A stretch of 61,858 nucleotides of DNA from Bernardetiaceae bacterium (lineage in GTDB: Bacteria; Bacteroidota; Bacteroidia; Cytophagales; Bernardetiaceae). A program made the position numbers and the translations under genes. How positions within the stretch are numbered: the stretch's first letter is position 1; every line of letters starts with the position of its first letter. Location of the stretch: positions 1-61,858 of the forward strand of contig JAFIER010000132.1 in NCBI GenBank assembly GCA_020832465.1, in the 5' to 3' direction. Below, in pieces: positions 7,942-48,887 of this stretch. A model generated the notes under the pieces. The model saw only the letters and a list, made by a program, of their open reading frames with translations, made no database searches and had not been told where the DNA came from.

Positions 7942-8055
7942 GGGTGTACGAAAACTTTGCTAAATTAGCCCAGAAACGACATTTCTTTAAGAAATGTCAT
8001 TTCTATAATTGACTAAGTACCAAGAACTAACAGTTTTCGAAAAACTGTTAGTTCT
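7942..8055 (-). mobile_element. Degenerate type 1 MITE end with two hairpins
   Basis: Starts with the MITE terminus GGGTGTACG and the inner sequence ACTTTGCTAAATTAGCCC. A hairpin follows (7972-8004, arm AGAAACGACATTTCT), then a spacer and a second hairpin (8023-8055, arm AGAACTAACAGTTTT). The opposite MITE end is missing, so this copy is decayed or truncated. No clear target duplication is seen. Confidence 0.65.
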
Positions 8056-8094
8056 GAATGCTAAATGTCTAGCAGTATGTGCAAATACTACTTT

Positions 8095-8421
8095 TTAGCT
8101 TTTAGCTTCCATTAAATCTCGGATAAGCTGTGTAGTTATCAAAAACTCTTCTTGTTTGCAGGCTTGAATGCCCGTAATTAAGGATTTTTTGACATTAACA
8201 TTGTTCTTTATTTGTTGGTAAAGATTGTCAAAAAGTAGTGTACCACTAATCCCAATTTTGACTTGGGGGTGTATCGCATCACAAATATAATGAAAACTGC
8301 TAAATCCTGATTTATAAGTATCATCGCAAGGTTTCATTACTTTTCCTGTCAAAGGGCAGGTATTGGACTTTAACTCGCGGTCTAAGCGGTCTTGAAAAGG
8401 CTTGGCATTGTAGAGACCCAT
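8095..8421 (-). CDS. Small cysteine-containing protein, unknown function
   Basis: A 108-residue cytoplasmic protein without a signal peptide. It has four cysteines, in TCPLTG, KPCDD, YICDA and QACKQ. The first pair, spaced CPLTGKVMKPC, could bind a metal, but I cannot confirm this. I do not recognise the family. It stands alone between a hairpin-rich spacer and the nfu terminator. Coding is supported by its ordered composition and by a frame that fills the gap. Confidence 0.6.
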   Translation of the reverse strand: MGLYNAKPFQDRLDRELKSNTCPLTGKVMKPCDDTYKSGFSSFHYICDAIHPQVKIGISGTLLFDNLYQQIKNNVNVKKSLITGIQACKQEEFLITTQLIRDLMEAKS

Positions 8422-8610
8422 GGCTCAAAAAATTGAAGTAAAAAATAAATTGCTAAAAAAATTTCTACCCTACCCTTTTTTATCTGTACGCAAAAAGTAC
8501 AAAAATATAAAATTGCTCGGTAGAAGGCTTACTACTAACAAAGAAACGAATTTATATATAAAAACGAAAAAAAACGACGACTTTCTTGTTGAAAAACAAA
8601 AAAATAAGCA

Positions 8611-8648
8611 AAAAAAGCCTCGATTATTCAAAATTGAGGCTTTTTTTT
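8611..8648 (-). terminator. Intrinsic terminator (nfu side)
   Basis: AAAAAAGCCTC and GAGGCTTTTTTTT form a GC-rich stem with A/T tails on both sides, as for a bidirectional terminator. It is 115 bp beyond the nfu stop. The rest of 8422-8762 is AT-rich. It contains lysine-rich open frames that look accidental. Confidence 0.7.
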
Positions 8649-8762
8649 GTTTTAACTTATAAGCAAATGATGAAAAACAACCATATCACTACGCCTTTTA
8701 GCAAAGTTGCCGTACAGTCGTTTGTCCCAATATGCTCATGCTACCACAAGATACAATTTCAA

Positions 8763-9383
8763 TTATTGATTATGGGCCACTACTTCTTTAACTTGCGGCA
8801 TCATATTTTGAAACAAATTCTGAATACCCGCTTTGAGTGTTATTGTAGAAGAAGGGCAGCCACTACAAGAGCCTTGCAAAATGACTTCTAATTTTCCACT
8901 TGCTTTATCAAAGCTATGAAAACTAATAGCACCGCCGTCCATATCTACAGCAGGGCGGATATACTCATCGAGAATTTGCTTAATGCGTGTAACTTCTGGT
9001 GTATCTCTGACAGCAGCCTCTGCTTTATCCTCAAGCTCTGCTACAATTTTATCAGAAAAAATAGGTTTTTGATCCTCAAAATACTGGGTCAAGAATTGAC
9101 GCAAGGGCGATATAAGTTCTATCCAATCTTGTTCAGGTGTTTTTGTAATCGTAATAAAATTCTTACTCATAAAAACTCTTGATACAAAATCAAAATTTTC
9201 GAAAAGAGCAGTAGCTAAAGGCGAGTTTTGCGCACTAGCTACATTGGGGTAATCAAATACAGGATCTTCCCGAATAAGCATAAAATTGCAAACAAATTTC
9301 ATCGCCTCCGGATTTGGATTTGATTCTACATATATATGCACTAACGGCTTCTCGGAAGTCTTCGAAGGGGTATGTACTGACAT
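8763..9383 (-). CDS. NifU-family Fe-S scaffold protein (Nfu)
   Basis: A 206-residue Fe-S cluster carrier. An N-terminal Nfu_N-like domain (about 13-100, with ESNPNPEAMKFV) is followed by a NifU C-terminal domain (about 130-206). That domain carries the cluster-binding CSGC motif, Cys173 and Cys176. Such proteins pass 4Fe-4S clusters from the SUF machinery to target enzymes. No suf genes are adjacent. The gene is complete, and its terminator is at 8611-8648. Confidence 0.93.
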   Translation of the reverse strand: MSVHTPSKTSEKPLVHIYVESNPNPEAMKFVCNFMLIREDPVFDYPNVASAQNSPLATALFENFDFVSRVFMSKNFITITKTPEQDWIELISPLRQFLTQYFEDQKPIFSDKIVAELEDKAEAAVRDTPEVTRIKQILDEYIRPAVDMDGGAISFHSFDKASGKLEVILQGSCSGCPSSTITLKAGIQNLFQNMMPQVKEVVAHNQ

Positions 9384-9433
9384 AAATTACTTGCGTTATT
9401 TGATAATAAAAATAGATTCTTTTTTAACAATCA

Positions 9434-9574
9434 AGCACTAACAGCTCAAAAAAAGGGGTGTACGACAACTTTGCTAATTATCAAGAACTAACAGTTTTCT
9501 AAAAACTGTTAGTTCTCAAATTATCTAAGTTGATTGACCAACTTGACGTACACCCAAAAAAAGCAGTTAGTGCT
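9434..9574. repeat. 33-bp hairpin split by a MITE insertion
   Basis: Left arm start AGCACTAACAGCT (9434-9446) and right arm AGCAGTTAGTGCT (9562-9574) flank the MITE at 9456-9555. Removing the MITE and one copy of the 8-bp duplication AAAAAAAG restores a hairpin of exactly 33 bp, with AGCACTAAC pairing to GTTAGTGCT. This records two successive events. Confidence 0.8.
9456..9555 (-). mobile_element. Type 1 MITE, complete, 8-bp TSD AAAAAAAG
   Basis: 100 bp with ends GGGTGTACGACAACTTTGC and, on the other strand, GGGTGTACGTCAAGTTGG. Perfect direct repeats AAAAAAAG lie at 9448-9455 and 9556-9563. The central hairpin at 9484-9516 has arms of the AGAACTAACAGTTTT class. There is no coding capacity. 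Confidence 0.9.
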
Positions 9575-9651
9575 CAGGTCGTATAAAATTACATTTACTA
9601 AACACTTCAATAGGGTAAAAAGGTTTTATCAAAGTGCTTTTTACATCAATA

Positions 9652-10635
9652 TTACTTTTTTACCAGACCAATTTCTTGAAGTCTTTGTTGCAAAAACTCA
9701 CCTGCTGTTATGTCTTCGTATTGCTTAGGATTTTGCTCATCAATGCAATTAGGCAAACAAGACAAATCCATTTCAGAGCGTGGGTGCATAAAAAATGGAA
9801 TAGAGTATCTTGAGGTATGCATGAGATGTTTCGGTGGATTGACTACCCTATGAATCGTAGATTTTAGTTTGTTGTTGGTATGCCTCTCGAGCATATCACC
9901 TACATTGACTACAATTTGCTCCGGCAGTGCTGTAATCGGAATCCATTTATTATCTCTGCGTAGGACTTCGAGCCCGTCAGCACTTGCCCCCATAAGTAGG
10001 GTTATTAGGTTAATATCTCCATGAGCTGCTGCACGTACAGCATCTGGTGCAATAGCATCGGGGTTTTCTATGGGAAAGTAATGAATAGCGCGCAAAATGC
10101 TATTGCCGTTATGAATTTTATCATCAAAATAGTGGGCATCTAAATTGAGATGAATCGCTGCGGCTTGCAAAAGTTCCCTACCAGCAGCTTCCAAAATTTG
10201 GTAAGCCTTGAGTGTAGCGGTTTCAAAATCAGGAACTTCTTTGGGAAAAATATTTTCAGGATATTCTTGCAATGCTTTATCTTGCGCTGCTTGCTCGGCA
10301 GTGAAAGGTTGCCCTACGTGATAAAACTCTTTTAGATCTGGCGTTTTAGAGTCCTTAGCCTTCTCACGAAGGCGTGCAATATAACCTCGTTGACCAGCAA
10401 TGGCTGTATCCTCGTATTGAAGTTTTTGCGCTTCCGAGAGGCTAAAAAACTGCTGAATACTATTGTAGAGTTTATCTTGCAATGCTTGTGTAAGACCGTG
10501 ATTGCGTACGGCTACAAAACCGATATTTTCCCAAGCGTTACCCAAGTCTTTGACAAATTGCTCACGTTGAGCACCGCCCGCTCGGAAGTCATTTAGGTCT
10601 ATCGAAGGAATTGCATCATAAAGTATTTGCGTCAT
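9652..10635 (-). CDS. Isopenicillin N synthase-like 2OG-Fe(II) dioxygenase
   Basis: A 327-residue non-haem iron oxygenase of the IPNS/DOXC family. An N-terminal DIOX_N domain (about 8-130) is followed by the jelly-roll core. The iron facial triad is visible as His205-x-Asp207 (AAHGDINL) and His262 (IHRVV). The 2-oxoglutarate clamp is Arg276-x-Ser278 (SRYS). All key residues are present, so it should be active. The substrate is unknown, and no biosynthetic cluster surrounds it. There is no signal peptide. A promoter is expected within 10636-10788. Confidence 0.9.
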   Translation of the reverse strand: MTQILYDAIPSIDLNDFRAGGAQREQFVKDLGNAWENIGFVAVRNHGLTQALQDKLYNSIQQFFSLSEAQKLQYEDTAIAGQRGYIARLREKAKDSKTPDLKEFYHVGQPFTAEQAAQDKALQEYPENIFPKEVPDFETATLKAYQILEAAGRELLQAAAIHLNLDAHYFDDKIHNGNSILRAIHYFPIENPDAIAPDAVRAAAHGDINLITLLMGASADGLEVLRRDNKWIPITALPEQIVVNVGDMLERHTNNKLKSTIHRVVNPPKHLMHTSRYSIPFFMHPRSEMDLSCLPNCIDEQNPKQYEDITAGEFLQQRLQEIGLVKK

Positions 10636-10788
10636 TTCTTTGTTGTTTTGTCTTTGATTGTATAGAATGCGAATAGTACTTAGCTTGTTATTATTTTAGA
10701 AGCCAAGAAATTTTATTTCTAAGGCATTTTTTCATAGCAAGGTTTGCAAAAAAGCTAAAAAAATGAGTCAATTGTAGTATTTAGTCTT

Positions 10789-13700
10789 TTATATTTTGAT
10801 ACCTACTACCAATACATCATCAATTTGCCGTTGCTGTCCTTTCCAATGGATAAAAGTTTCTTTAAGATTTTTGTGTTGCTCCTCGAGGTTTAATTCTTTA
10901 ATTTTGAGTAATTTTTCTTTAAAACGCTTTCTTGTAAACTTACGACCCTCGCTTCCGCCAAACTGGTCGAGGAAGCCATCAGTGGTCATATAAAGCATAT
11001 CGCCTTTTTGGGCTTTGATAGGTTTATTGGTAAAGATTTTTTTCTTATCGTGCAACAAACGCCCACCAATAGAAAACTTATCTCCTTTGATCTCTTCTAT
11101 TTGATTATCAGAAACGACAAAAAGCGAGTTTTTAGCTCCAGCATAACGCATTTGTCCTTTGCTAAAATCTATATGCAATAGGCTCATATCCATGCCATCA
11201 CGGCTTTTGTACGCACGTTCTGTATCTTCTTGTTGGTGTAGCCATTGTATAATTTCTTTGTTCATATACTCGAGAATGCGGGCAGGGTCATTGAGCCTTC
11301 TAACATTGATCATTTGCTCGAGAAGCGCAAAGGCAATTACAGACATGAATGCGCCTGGTACGCCATGCCCGGTGCAATCAACTACGGCTAAGTAAGCATT
11401 ATTATCTCTTGTCGTACACCAATAAAAATCACCAGATACGATATCACGAGGGTTATAATATACAAAGTTTTCGCCTATAGCTTCTTTGATTTCGCTTGCT
11501 TCGGGTATAATTGCATCTTGAATGCGCTGTGCATATCTGATGCTATCCATAACTTTTTTGTTGCTTAGTGCTAAAAGTTGCCCTTTCTCTTCAACTTTTT
11601 CTTTTTCTTTGCGAAGCTCAATAGTTCTTTCTTGTACCTTAGCTTCGAGTAGGCGTTTGTCTCGTTCGACGCTCAGGACGCGTAGCCAATAAAAGAGCAA
11701 AAACAAAGCAATGACAGAAACCACAACAGTAAGTACAAACCAAGGTTCTTTATAAAAAGGCGGGGTAATCGTAATTTCTATAATAATAGGCGTTTCGTTC
11801 CATCGCCCGTCGGAGTTAGTACCTTTAGCTTTGAAGGTATAAGTACCTGGGTCTAAGTTTGTGTATTTCGCAAAGCCTCTATTGAGATAGTTCCATTCTG
11901 TTTCGAAGCCTTCGAGCATGTAGGCGTATTTGTTGTGCTCCGGCGAACTGTAATGCAGTGCTGCAAATTCAATAGAAATAGAATTTTGTTTGTGGCTAAG
12001 CGAAAGTATGCGTGATTCATTGATATGGCGTTGGAGCACACCAGTGCTGTCTCCAATTTCTACTTTGCGATTAAAGAGGTAGAAATTCGTGAAAACGATA
12101 GGGGCTTTATACGGATTTGTACGAATGCTATCAGGAAAAAAATAATTCAAACCATTGATCCCCCCAAAGAAAAGCTCGCCTTCGGTATTGCGAAAAGCAG
12201 CGCCGGCATTAAACTCATTGCTTTGCAAGCCGTCATCTATTGTATAGTTTTGAAAAGTTTTTTCTTTGATATTAAACCGTGAGAGTCCACGATTAGTGCT
12301 GAGCCAAAGATGCCCAGAGTCATCAGCTAATACATCATAAACTACATTATTGGGCAAACCGTCCTCTTCGGTATAGTGCACAAACTCTTCATTTTGGGGG
12401 TTAAACTTATTGATGCCCCCGCCGTAGGTAAGCACCCAAATGCTTTGAGGGTCGCTTTGATACACAGGATATACCCTATCAGTGCTTATACTTTTGGGAT
12501 TATTGACATCATTTTTGTAGGCTTTAAAGGTTTCTGTTTTGGGGTCAAAACGATTAAGCCCCCCGCCATAGGTACTAATCCAAAGTATGCCCTCATTATC
12601 TTCGTATATCCCCCTAATTCTGTTATTAGATAAACTTTCAGGATTATTAGGGTCGTATGTATAGGATTTAAAATCATTAGTTTCAGGTCTGAATTGGGCA
12701 AGGCCGCCTTTGTCCGTACCGATCCAAAGCGTACCATTTTTGCTTTTAAAAATAATTCGAACATGATCGCTTTGTAGGCTATTGATATCGTTAGTATTTG
12801 CACGGTAAGAGGTAAGAATTTCTATTGGTGCATTAGGGTTTTTATTGCTTAGCAAGTACAGACCGCTATTTCTTGTGCCCATCCATATCTGCTTTGCGGT
12901 TGTATCCTCGAGGAAGCAAGAAGAGGCTATATTGCTTAGGTGGTTATATACTTCGCCTGTTTGGCGATTCATACGGGAAATGCCTTCCATTGTACCTACC
13001 CATAGTATGCCAAAATGATCTTGATATACAGAGCGAATAACGGGGTCTGCAAATTTATTTTTGGCTTGATTATATACGTTAAACTTAATTTTCTTGGGGT
13101 CGTATTTATTGATACCATAGCCATTTGTACCTATCCAAATGATTCCAGCATCGTCCTCAAAAAGTTCGATAACGTCATTACCCGAAAGGCTGTAAGGGTC
13201 TGAGGGGCTATTGCGATAGGTTTGCAAGGCATTTCTATCTTTCTCTGGGTTATAAAGCTGCACGCCCTGCCCTACTGTGGCTATCCAGATGATGCCATTT
13301 TTGTCGATAAGCAAGTCATTTATTGCTCTATATTGATTGACAATCGTATAAATACCTTGTGTATTACGCTTAAAAAAACCATCAGGACCGGCAGCCCACA
13401 TATTTCCTTTTTTATCAAAAACAATAGCTCTGATTTTTCTTTTGCTAAATGCCTTATGAATAAAACTTTGATTACTTCTATCAAACTCGATAATACCGTC
13501 GTTGGTTGCTAACAGCAATTCACCTTTTGGGGATTCTACAATTTTGAAAATATTATTGCCTGCGGGCGTATCTTGGCTAAAGTGGCTAAATACTCCGTTA
13601 TTGTTATCTAAAAGATTAAGCCCATTGTCAGTAGCTATCCAAAGCCTGCGCTCGCTATCTTGATAAATATCGTGAATGACATTGCTACTAATACTACCTG

Positions 13701-16271: not shown

Positions 16272-16304
16272 AGAACTAACAGTTCTTTGAGAACTGTTAG
16301 TTTT
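16272..16304. repeat. 33-bp-class hairpin (AGAACTAAC arm)
   Basis: AGAACTAACAGTTCT pairs with its complement (last three bases GTTTT instead of GTTCT), loop TTG. It stands alone, 54 bp upstream of the protease gene. Confidence 0.8.
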
Positions 16305-16493: not shown

Positions 16494-16620
16494 TCATACT
16501 ATTATACATTTTTCCATAGCTTGGGGTTTGCAAACCCCAAGCTATGGAAAAATGGGCTTAGAAATAATATTTCTTTGAGATATGTTATTTCTGGCTAGCG
16601 AATGTATAGTAAGCAGTATG
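16494..16620 (+). mobile_element. Type 2 two-hairpin element with 8-bp duplication ATATTTAT
   Basis: TCATACTATTATAC at one end and AGCAGTATG at the other. Inside are the 46-bp near-perfect palindrome 16508-16553 (CCATAGCTTGGGGTTTGC arm) and the AGAAATAAT hairpin 16560-16592, followed by GGCTAGCGAATG. ATATTTAT occurs on both sides (16486-16493 and 16621-16628), consistent with transposition. This is the best-preserved copy in the window. Confidence 0.75.
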
Positions 16621-19083: not shown

Positions 19084-19181
19084 ATTTTTTTCATAGCGTA
19101 GGGCTTGCAAGTCCTACGCTATGAAAAAATTTAAAGAAACAACATTGCTGCCATTTCTGCCAGAAATGTTATTTCTTTAAA
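19084..19181 (+). repeat. Decayed type 2 two-hairpin element
   Basis: Palindrome 19084-19130 (CATAGCGTAGGGCTTGC arm with A/T tails) followed by an imperfect hairpin 19130-19181. The second hairpin has TTTAAAGAAACAACATT and AATGTTATTTCTTTAAA arms with an internal duplication of ATTTCTG. It has the same order as the complete copies, but the ends are lost. Confidence 0.65.
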
Positions 19182-47774: not shown

Positions 47775-47848
47775 CATTTTTGAGACCTCCTTAAAACCTA
47801 CAAAAAGTAGGTATTAAATGAAAAGTGATCATCTTTATTGGCAACCTT

Positions 47849-47879
47849 GCACTAATAGTTCTTCAAGGACTGTTAGTGC
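47849..47879 (+). repeat. 33-bp-class hairpin (GCACTAATAG arm)
   Basis: GCACTAATAGTTCTT pairs with GGACTGTTAGTGC allowing G-T pairs, loop CAA. It follows the T9SS giant gene by 75 bp. Confidence 0.75.
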
Positions 47880-47897
47880 TCAATTTTAAACTTACTT

Positions 47898-48677
47898 ATG
47901 CAAAAATATTTTTTTAGTGGCCTTAAACTTTTGAGTTTGCTCTCTTTGCTACTTGTTGTAGCTACTGGATGTCGCAAGTCAAATGCTACCCAAAGCAGTA
48001 AATTAGCTGAGAAATACGGCATTGAAAATGTAGATTTCAATTACCTGACGAGCAAATCGCGTTTAGTATATCAAGATGAGAATCAAAATCTGAAAAGTGG
48101 AATTGATGTGCGCATGCAAAAGGATAGTACAATATGGCTATCAGCACGCCCCATGCTGGGCATAGAAGCCATGCGTATGCTTGTGCGGCGAGATTCTATT
48201 TTTATGATTGATAAAATCAATAAAACCTATTCTGCTATGAATTTTGAGCAGCTTAGTGCACGTGCGGGTGCAAACCTAAATTTTGACCGTTTACAAGCCA
48301 TTTTATTGGGCAATATGCCTATATGGGACGAAGCAACTGGTATAATACGGGAAACTGAGGGTGAAAATTTTGTACTCAAAACACAAGAAAATGATTGGGA
48401 GGTCTTAATGCGTGTAAGCCGTAGTCATCGCAAATTATCATTTTTGGAAATTATGTTGCCCAATACACCTAATTTTATGCGTGTAAATTATGCTAATTTT
48501 GTTGATGTTGATAAATATAAAATTCCGCACGAAATCGAGACAGATATATCGTTTTTACAAAAGGGTGCAGTAAGCACTGCGCGTTTTGAAATTGAGCACA
48601 AAAAAATTACACTTACTAACGAGCAACTGACTTTTCCTTTTTCTATTCCAAGTGGCTATAAAGAAAGGGTTTTTTGA
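47898..48677 (+). CDS. DUF4292 lipoprotein (LolB-like)
   Basis: A 259-residue lipoprotein with the lipobox VATGC (Cys25). The mature part is a one-domain beta barrel typical of DUF4292, with FNYLTSKSRLVYQDENQNL, VRMQKDSTIWLSARPMLGIEAMRM and a late IELPHEIE-type repeat. The fold resembles LolB/LppX and is thought to carry lipid or lipoprotein. DUF4292 is Bacteroidota-specific and usually lies next to a tetratricopeptide or murein-related gene. Here the next gene is on the opposite strand. The exact role is unknown. Confidence 0.88.
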   Translation: MQKYFFSGLKLLSLLSLLLVVATGCRKSNATQSSKLAEKYGIENVDFNYLTSKSRLVYQDENQNLKSGIDVRMQKDSTIWLSARPMLGIEAMRMLVRRDSIFMIDKINKTYSAMNFEQLSARAGANLNFDRLQAILLGNMPIWDEATGIIRETEGENFVLKTQENDWEVLMRVSRSHRKLSFLEIMLPNTPNFMRVNYANFVDVDKYKIPHEIETDISFLQKGAVSTARFEIEHKKITLTNEQLTFPFSIPSGYKERVF

Positions 48678-48788: not shown

Positions 48789-48887
48789 AGCAACAACATT
48801 TTTCAAAGAGATATTATTGCTAAGTTCATTTTTCTATAGCGTGGGGGTTGCAAACCCCACGCTATAGAAATAATGTATAGTGGTATG
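48789..48887 (-). mobile_element. Type 2 two-hairpin element
   Basis: Hairpin 48789-48821 (AGCAACAACATTTTTC arm, partner ATATTATTGCT) is followed by TAAGTTC. The near-perfect palindrome 48828-48874 (CTATAGCGTGGGGGTTGC arm) comes next, then GTATAGTGGTATG. It has the same order and spacing as 15265-15390. The left end beyond the first hairpin is lost in the neighbouring MITE fragment. Confidence 0.7.

Follow-up and report, generated by a model that had tools for sequence, protein, structure and literature searches.

A short MITE inserted into an older 33-nt extragenic hairpin in a Bernardetiaceae genome

Positions 9434–9574 of the stretch of Bernardetiaceae DNA analyzed here (61,858 nucleotides, hereafter the window) very probably record the entry of a MITE into a pre-existing hairpin between two genes, an event that duplicated the 8 bp AAAAAAAG and split the hairpin into parts of 22 and 11 nt. 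In the mechanism that we propose, a MITE of the GGGTGTACG family would have inserted into the loop-side A-tract of an older, extragenic 33-nt hairpin, the insertion would have duplicated the 8-bp target and so cut the hairpin into 22 + 11 nt, and an ISKra4-type transposase acting in trans would have been the enzyme. The site is thus one small element nested in another, with the order of the two still readable.

The interrupted gap lies between two ORFs that are both on the minus strand, a 206-aa putative nfu gene at 8763–9383 and a 327-aa putative 2OG oxygenase gene at 9652–10635 (both labels are those of the first-pass annotation of this DNA). The left part of the split hairpin occupies 9434–9455 (22 nt, AGCACTAACAGCTCAAAAAAAG) and contains the left copy of the target duplication, AAAAAAAG at 9448–9455, which corresponds to hairpin positions 15–22. 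The MITE follows at 9456–9555; it is a 100-bp form in the plus orientation (left-type end first), and its perfect 9-nt inverted ends, GGGTGTACG and CGTACACCC, lie within a 23-nt imperfect inverted repeat. Beyond it are the right duplication copy at 9556–9563 and the 11-nt right part of the hairpin at 9564–9574 (CAGTTAGTGCT), which completes the 33-mer. The limits previously given for the MITE and the two hairpin parts are correct when read directly against the DNA, and the 8-bp duplication is exact, its sequence being an A-run of low complexity. The MITE also carries its own inner 33-nt hairpin at 9484–9516 (15 pairs and a 3-nt loop), which belongs to the same family as the split outer hairpin. 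Two uninterrupted hairpins elsewhere in the window are useful for comparison: one at 1407–1439 stands alone with no MITE around it and shares the left arm AGCACTAACAG and the right end GTTAGTGCT with the split one, and another at 47848–47880 has surroundings weakly like those of the rebuilt site, for which 47817–47905 (66% over 92 columns) is the only, weak, sister. An Rfam search of positions 8000–11000 gave four matches, every one far below its gathering score.

How completely is the older hairpin restored when the MITE is taken out? Removal of the MITE and one AAAAAAAG copy leaves 22 + 11 nt, exactly 33 nt, and the first-pass annotation was right that this equals the length of the stand-alone hairpins. 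The rebuilt 33-mer has nine perfect outer pairs (AGCACTAAC/GTTAGTGCT), then an A-A mismatch at pair 10 that falls within the conserved core of the hairpin family, and renewed pairing at pairs 11–13. The description of this hairpin as one that can be rebuilt exactly is therefore accurate for its length and its outer arms and does not extend to a perfect stem, because pair 10 is mismatched. Folded as single-stranded DNA, the rebuilt 33-mer has a calculated energy of −9.6 kcal/mol, compared to a mean of −2.94 kcal/mol for 200 shuffles, none of which was as good. In 40,000 shuffles of both flanks that preserved dinucleotides, any site-spanning 33-mer with nine perfect outer pairs arose 17 times and a 33-mer of the hairpin family 5 times.

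That the hairpin came first and the MITE second is well supported, because the duplication, the existence of MITE-free hairpins and a set of parallel cases with MITE-free sisters all agree. This order had been claimed from the window alone, and it is upheld: the 8-bp duplication is exact, a single copy of it completes the 33-mer, and four further MITEs interrupt hairpins of this type close to the apex (at loci L142, L144, L110 and L057, the last in a 32-nt form of the hairpin), two of them at sites that have MITE-free sister copies. The duplication covers hairpin positions 15–22 in the window, 9–16 in L142, 16–23 in L144, 13–20 in L110 and, as judged by eye, 16–23 of 32 in L057. Rebuilt L144 aligns across the junction with its MITE-free sister L171 (89% over 103 columns), as does rebuilt L057 with its MITE-free sister L258 (79% over 85 columns). 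A test restricted to 33-mers flagged 7 of 97 elements; three of these, L111, L074 and L185, do no more than touch the edge of the hairpin, have 3–6 duplication mismatches and were left out of our count, as was L163, where only the left arm is present; L057 entered through the local-null test described below and not through the 33-mer-only test. The hairpin also proves to be an independent unit, as had been proposed, since copies without this MITE are present in the same genome, in the same-family genome G003 and in those parts of four MAGs that were read.

The MITE belongs to a large family in this genome, where MITE-type ends have 198 + 222 matches at ≤2 mismatches, compared to 1 + 0 in the control. 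A survey of the window plus 153 further stretches of the same genome (368.5 kb) yielded 98 elements, 94 of them 70–216 bp long and the other four 237–318 bp. In 43 of them the 8-bp duplication is perfect and in 19 it differs at one position; the other 36 show no duplication at this place, a class in which some ends are probably mis-paired and some elements have a shifted or 7-bp copy; in 62 of the 98, then, the ends GGGTGTACG/CGTACACCC are directly flanked by a duplication with no more than one mismatch. Terminal inverted repeats, a target duplication of fixed 8-bp length and many short copies together mark these elements as MITEs. The commonest lengths are 153 bp (18 elements), 102 bp (16) and 213 bp (9), and the 102-, 153- and 204-bp forms step by 51 nt, the length of an inner 33-nt hairpin plus an 18-nt spacer, and carry one, two or three inner hairpins. 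The 100-bp copy at 9456–9555 looks like a 153-bp form from which one unit may have been lost between short direct repeats. Forms of 70–93 bp that have no hairpin were considered as proof that the hairpin inserts into the MITE, and this was rejected, as they look like deletions.

Several members of the family have additional features. The 213-bp elements, among them those of L142, L151 and L188, carry, next to the hairpin, a further palindrome that reads CGAAGCTCCAGCTTCG or nearly so. In the 120-bp MITE at L108 844–963 the right arm of the hairpin is present twice in tandem, as if one arm had been recopied, and the MITE at L097 1017–1169 apparently lies inside the end of a further member of its own family, with GGGTGTAC as its duplication.

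Thirty-eight relatives were searched, none of them of the same genus, and in these genomes words similar to the MITE ends (≤2 mismatches) are mostly at control level. G006 is above control (11 + 3 compared to 1 + 0) and has GGGTGTACGACAAATTTC ends, and the whole genome of G003 has 4 + 3 such words compared to 0 + 1 in its control, all at exactly two mismatches and on seven different contigs. Viral contigs gave one lone match to a MITE end, with no second end and no hairpin, and no copy of the 33-nt hairpin.

The enzyme responsible is likely an ISKra4-type transposase that acts in trans, an assignment suggested by an element in G010, a relative of the same family. This element is 1244 bp long, its ends, GGGTGTACGACAATTTTC, face each other, and it has TATGCGTT on both sides; it shares the 8-bp duplication and nearly the same 18-nt ends with the MITE. 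The best NCBIfam match of the 306-aa ORF between its ends is ISKra4 (NF033572; E = 5.9e-47; profile positions 115–422 of 422) with a score of 160.7 bits, which is below the curated cut-off of 205, and in Pfam no family passes its cut-off for this ORF. In the MITE's own genome there are three ISKra4-like fragments (L262, L263 and L264), of which one contains stops and two lie at the ends of contigs. A MITE end lies about 750 bp from the L264 fragment, which is at a contig end, and none is present in the stretches read around L262 and L263. Action in trans by such an enzyme is what we infer, because the own genome shows only these fragments, none of them directly beside a MITE end, and no intact transposase with these exact ends. 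Two stretches between distant MITE ends, in C154 (outside 8600–9000) and C64, were considered as a possible full-length transposon, and no transposase was recognized by eye among their listed ORFs. An ISL3 transposase was also considered as the MITE's enzyme and was rejected, as it has no match in the own genome.

Other genomes were also searched for this nfu–2OG gap. The nfu and 2OG protein genes are adjacent in none of 29 loci from the relatives and none of four loci from MAGs, each read to at most about 1.5 kb around nfu, and in a genome_contigs scan for the nfu protein 35 stretches matched the pattern and none was confirmed. The distant hairpin-bearing genomes have nfu-like proteins of 51–59% identity. 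In one of 33 nfu-like loci, L240 of the distant RDXG MAG, the 400 nt before the nfu match contain a hairpin: an intact, MITE-free 33-nt hairpin at 2163–2195 lies directly upstream of nfu; the neighboring ORF there is carA-like (by eye) and not a 2OG gene. The nfu-side flanks of L240 and the window are weakly alike, as their similarity score is reached by 89 of 3000 shuffles when flank is compared with flank, by 272 of 3000 for the whole gap and by 27 of 1500 with the arm included. The L240 hairpin favors the hairpin-first order and is not decisive; it may be a coincidence, because this MAG was picked for carrying hairpins. The L240 gap (2092–2216) also contains a lone arm, CAAAACTAACAG, about 48 nt before the nfu start, and the corresponding distance in the window is 51 nt.

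The outer hairpin belongs to a family that is common to several genomes, some of them distant. With the strict pattern TAACANTTN7AANTGTTA, 716 copies are found in the own genome, compared to 1 in the control. Among the 38 relatives only G003 stands out with this pattern (nine matches, control 1), and five others have one or two. In a genome_contigs scan for the hairpin, it was found in at least 27 stretches of four MAGs (CANGYA, JAAFHK, JAAFKA and RDXG). The nine hairpin stretches of G003 contain no word similar to a MITE end, and the MAG stretches (188.8 kb) contain no MITE end at ≤3 mismatches and four words at four mismatches. A less strict flank motif places one of 28 MAG hairpins with this MITE, and because of this one match and the end-like words of G003 noted above, a distant relative of the MITE may be present in G003 or the MAGs.

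Within the own genome, hairpins were assigned to classes by their flanks, the classes being rough motif matches. Among 19 hairpins from five stretches chosen regardless of repeats (the unbiased set), one was classed with this MITE family, seven with a second MITE-like family that has CATACTACTATACATT-type ends, three with a third repeat and eight with none; the corresponding numbers for 21 hairpins of the window are nine, one, one and ten. The second MITE-like family is often about 120 bp long, has ends like CATACTACTATACATT and carries the 33-nt hairpin (L171 636–735, L256 17378–17478, window 16496–16615 and others), and many of its copies adjoin a longer palindrome such as CATAGCGTGGGG...CCCCACGCTATG. 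There is in addition a family of ~36-nt palindromes centered on TTGCAA (window 16513–16548, 19090–19125 and 48833–48868), which in several copies is part of the second MITE-like family. The third repeat, with GCATTAC-type flanks and a hairpin inside, looks common to the own genome (window 16272–16304) and the JAAFKA MAG, and copies of it are found in L226, L227, L232, L234, L236 and L239.

The TAACA/TGTTA core and the length of the hairpin are kept between genomes, and its arms remain paired. An alignment of 51 hairpins, 48 of them distinct (20 from the window, 9 from G003 and 22 of the 33 listed MAG hairpins, with three weak ones and eight others left out), has 97.6% of its cells paired. Paired changes on both sides occur in 7 of 15 pairs, a number reached by 3 of 500 shuffles, and the covariation score is reached by none of 500, although such counts are inflated because many of the aligned sequences come from one genome. 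Paired change of this kind is expected either from selection on a folded strand or from copying of one arm to the other, and these data do not separate the two. Hairpins may themselves have landed in older palindromes: over ~5 nt, the flanks of 24 own solo copies show more complementarity than expected, and those of 36 copies from other genomes do not. We also considered whether the arms serve as a DNA-uptake word and rejected this, since single arms outside hairpins (4 compared to 1.6 expected, and 6 compared to 4.9) show no clear excess.

Could the outer arms and the MITE instead have arrived together? We consider it very improbable that the outer arms are the margins of a bigger, composite MITE of 141 bp that transposes as a whole. 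The outer arms and the MITE's inner hairpin do belong to the same hairpin family, the 26 nt surrounding the left outer and left inner arms are 81% alike, and MITEs of this type contain one, two or three inner hairpins in their 102-, 153- and 204-bp forms. Nonetheless, the GGGTGTACG/CGTACACCC ends with their 8-bp duplication are the boundary of the element in 62 of 98 cases, and the duplication at our site lies inside the arms, not outside them. Moreover, 105 own-genome matches were listed for 9400–9620 (40 of 595 first-look candidates having been scored), and none of them except the query reaches the right outer arm or, consequently, spans both outer arms; the MITE therefore moves without them. 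It is more improbable still that the match of the outer arms is due to chance or to faulty assembly. The assembly is in 289 contigs, four of which (C24, C39, C78 and C112) begin inside such an element; against this, the flank shuffles described above produced a member of the hairpin family in only 5 of 40,000 cases, four parallel split hairpins are known, and the duplication is placed as it is in 62 of the 98 family members. Insertion of the MITE into a hairpin that was already in place is thus the reading that we prefer.

Given this preferred reading, was the hairpin a target or simply in the way? A preference of the insertions for hairpin apices is suggestive only, and we regard it as rather doubtful that the MITE family actively seeks such apices, in the way that certain insertion sequences target REPs, and that the nesting was therefore targeted. 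The local null left out eight of the 62 duplication-confirmed elements (those in predicted ORFs of at least 90 aa), and 5 of the 54 intergenic insertions strike a 33-nt hairpin in its central part, compared to 1.25 expected if sites are drawn at random within those gaps (P = 0.007), but this central zone was defined after the cases had been seen. The other 49 are not in such a hairpin, and when any position within the hairpin is allowed the 5 observed compare with 3.26 expected (P = 0.22); hairpins make up 1.8% of the non-MITE bases read, so that 1.7 hits among 97 are expected by coverage alone. Palindrome scores are similarly divided: a score of at least 11 is found at 9 of 62 insertion centers, where displaced centers give 4.2 on average and never more than 7, but the mean score is 6.69 at the center and 6.64 at 40 nt away. 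In an earlier, smaller set (38 rows, two of which share one left end, in L049), 6 of 38 sites reached 9, compared to 4.2% of control sites, but none reached 14, though 0.7% of controls do. Finally, A or T is present at duplication position 2 in 53 of 62 and at position 7 in 51 of 62, and A/T-rich loops could thus mimic an apex preference. A separate question is what the hairpin itself is. It may be an ordinary two-way transcription terminator whose spread reflects common use rather than mobility, and its location fits such a role: only 4 of 40 hairpins are in predicted coding sequence although 85% of the bases are coding (window plus the five unbiased stretches), 10 of 35 placed hairpins are in convergent gaps, which hold 13% of gap bases, the corresponding values are 5 of 9 and 28% in G003 (with none divergent) and 9 of 25 and 23% in the MAG stretches, and four of the nine G003 copies start with AAAA and end with TTTT. 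Clear T-tracts, on the other hand, accompany few hairpins (2 of the 19 in the unbiased own set, none of the 21 in the window, 3 of the 9 from G003 and 2 of the 28 from the MAGs), the TAACA/TGTTA core and the length are conserved between genomes, and many copies lie within MITEs; we consider this explanation unlikely. We infer that the hairpin is a palindromic module that resembles REPs, is often carried by MITEs and changes in both arms together, and put forward, as a tentative proposal held with less than even confidence, that it is an uncatalogued Cytophagales module that keeps its length, core and pairing, exists both solo and within at least two MITE families, travels with them and itself provides insertion sites for one of these families.

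Since one hairpin family recurs both solo and in more than one MITE family, these genomes could show how short palindromes spread and how their arms stay complementary, and the hairpin family is perhaps more interesting than the nesting itself. Our literature search found no description of this 33-nt hairpin or of this MITE, and the closest parallels are as follows. Like REP elements (palindromes with GTAG/CGTC that are associated with RAYT transposases), the hairpin is in the 20–40 bp size range, is present in hundreds of copies and is extragenic (PMC2817692, PMC3733652, in the portions available to us). Unlike them, it has GTAG within 8 nt in none of 19 unbiased own copies, 21 window copies or 9 G003 copies, GTAG is rare elsewhere (four instances in a partial own set of 137 hairpins and 352,893 bases that leaves out L041–L099, and three in 28 MAG copies), and CGTC is seen in none of these sets. 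In addition, the own genome has three matches to Y1_Tnp (RAYT), and their loci, L194–L196 (2.0–3.3 kb each), contain no hairpin. We call the hairpin REP-like and not a REP because GTAG is absent or rare and no Y1 transposase locus contains it. With respect to the MITE, the ISKra4 family is the closest parallel to judge by the G010 insertion sequence, with its nearly identical 18-nt ends, 8-bp duplication and ISKra4-like transposase; the points of difference are that no intact enzyme bearing these exact ends was found in the own genome and that the NCBIfam score of the G010 protein is below the curated cut-off. The BrickBuilt MITE of Porphyromonas gingivalis is likewise a Bacteroidota MITE that is intergenic and has a repeated inner unit, but in the available portion of its description that unit is 23 nt long and is repeated without spacers, whereas here a 51-nt unit (33-nt hairpin plus 18-nt spacer) is present one to three times (PMC4596501). 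The nested arrangement itself most resembles that of the insertion sequences IS1397, IS621, ISKpn1, ISPpu9/10 and ISRm22, which insert into REP palindromes with high selectivity (PMC1525189); in both situations a transposable element lies within a short, high-copy extragenic palindrome. The part of that paper available to us names IS3, IS110, IS4, IS256 and IS5 as the REP-targeting families, ISKra4 not being among these five, and the element here differs from them in being a MITE, probably ISKra4-type by its ends, and in that 5 of 54 intergenic insertions strike a hairpin center, which is not the high selectivity described for REP palindromes. The nesting of mobile elements in palindromic repeats is thus already known, and the present case is a well-preserved, ordinary example of it.
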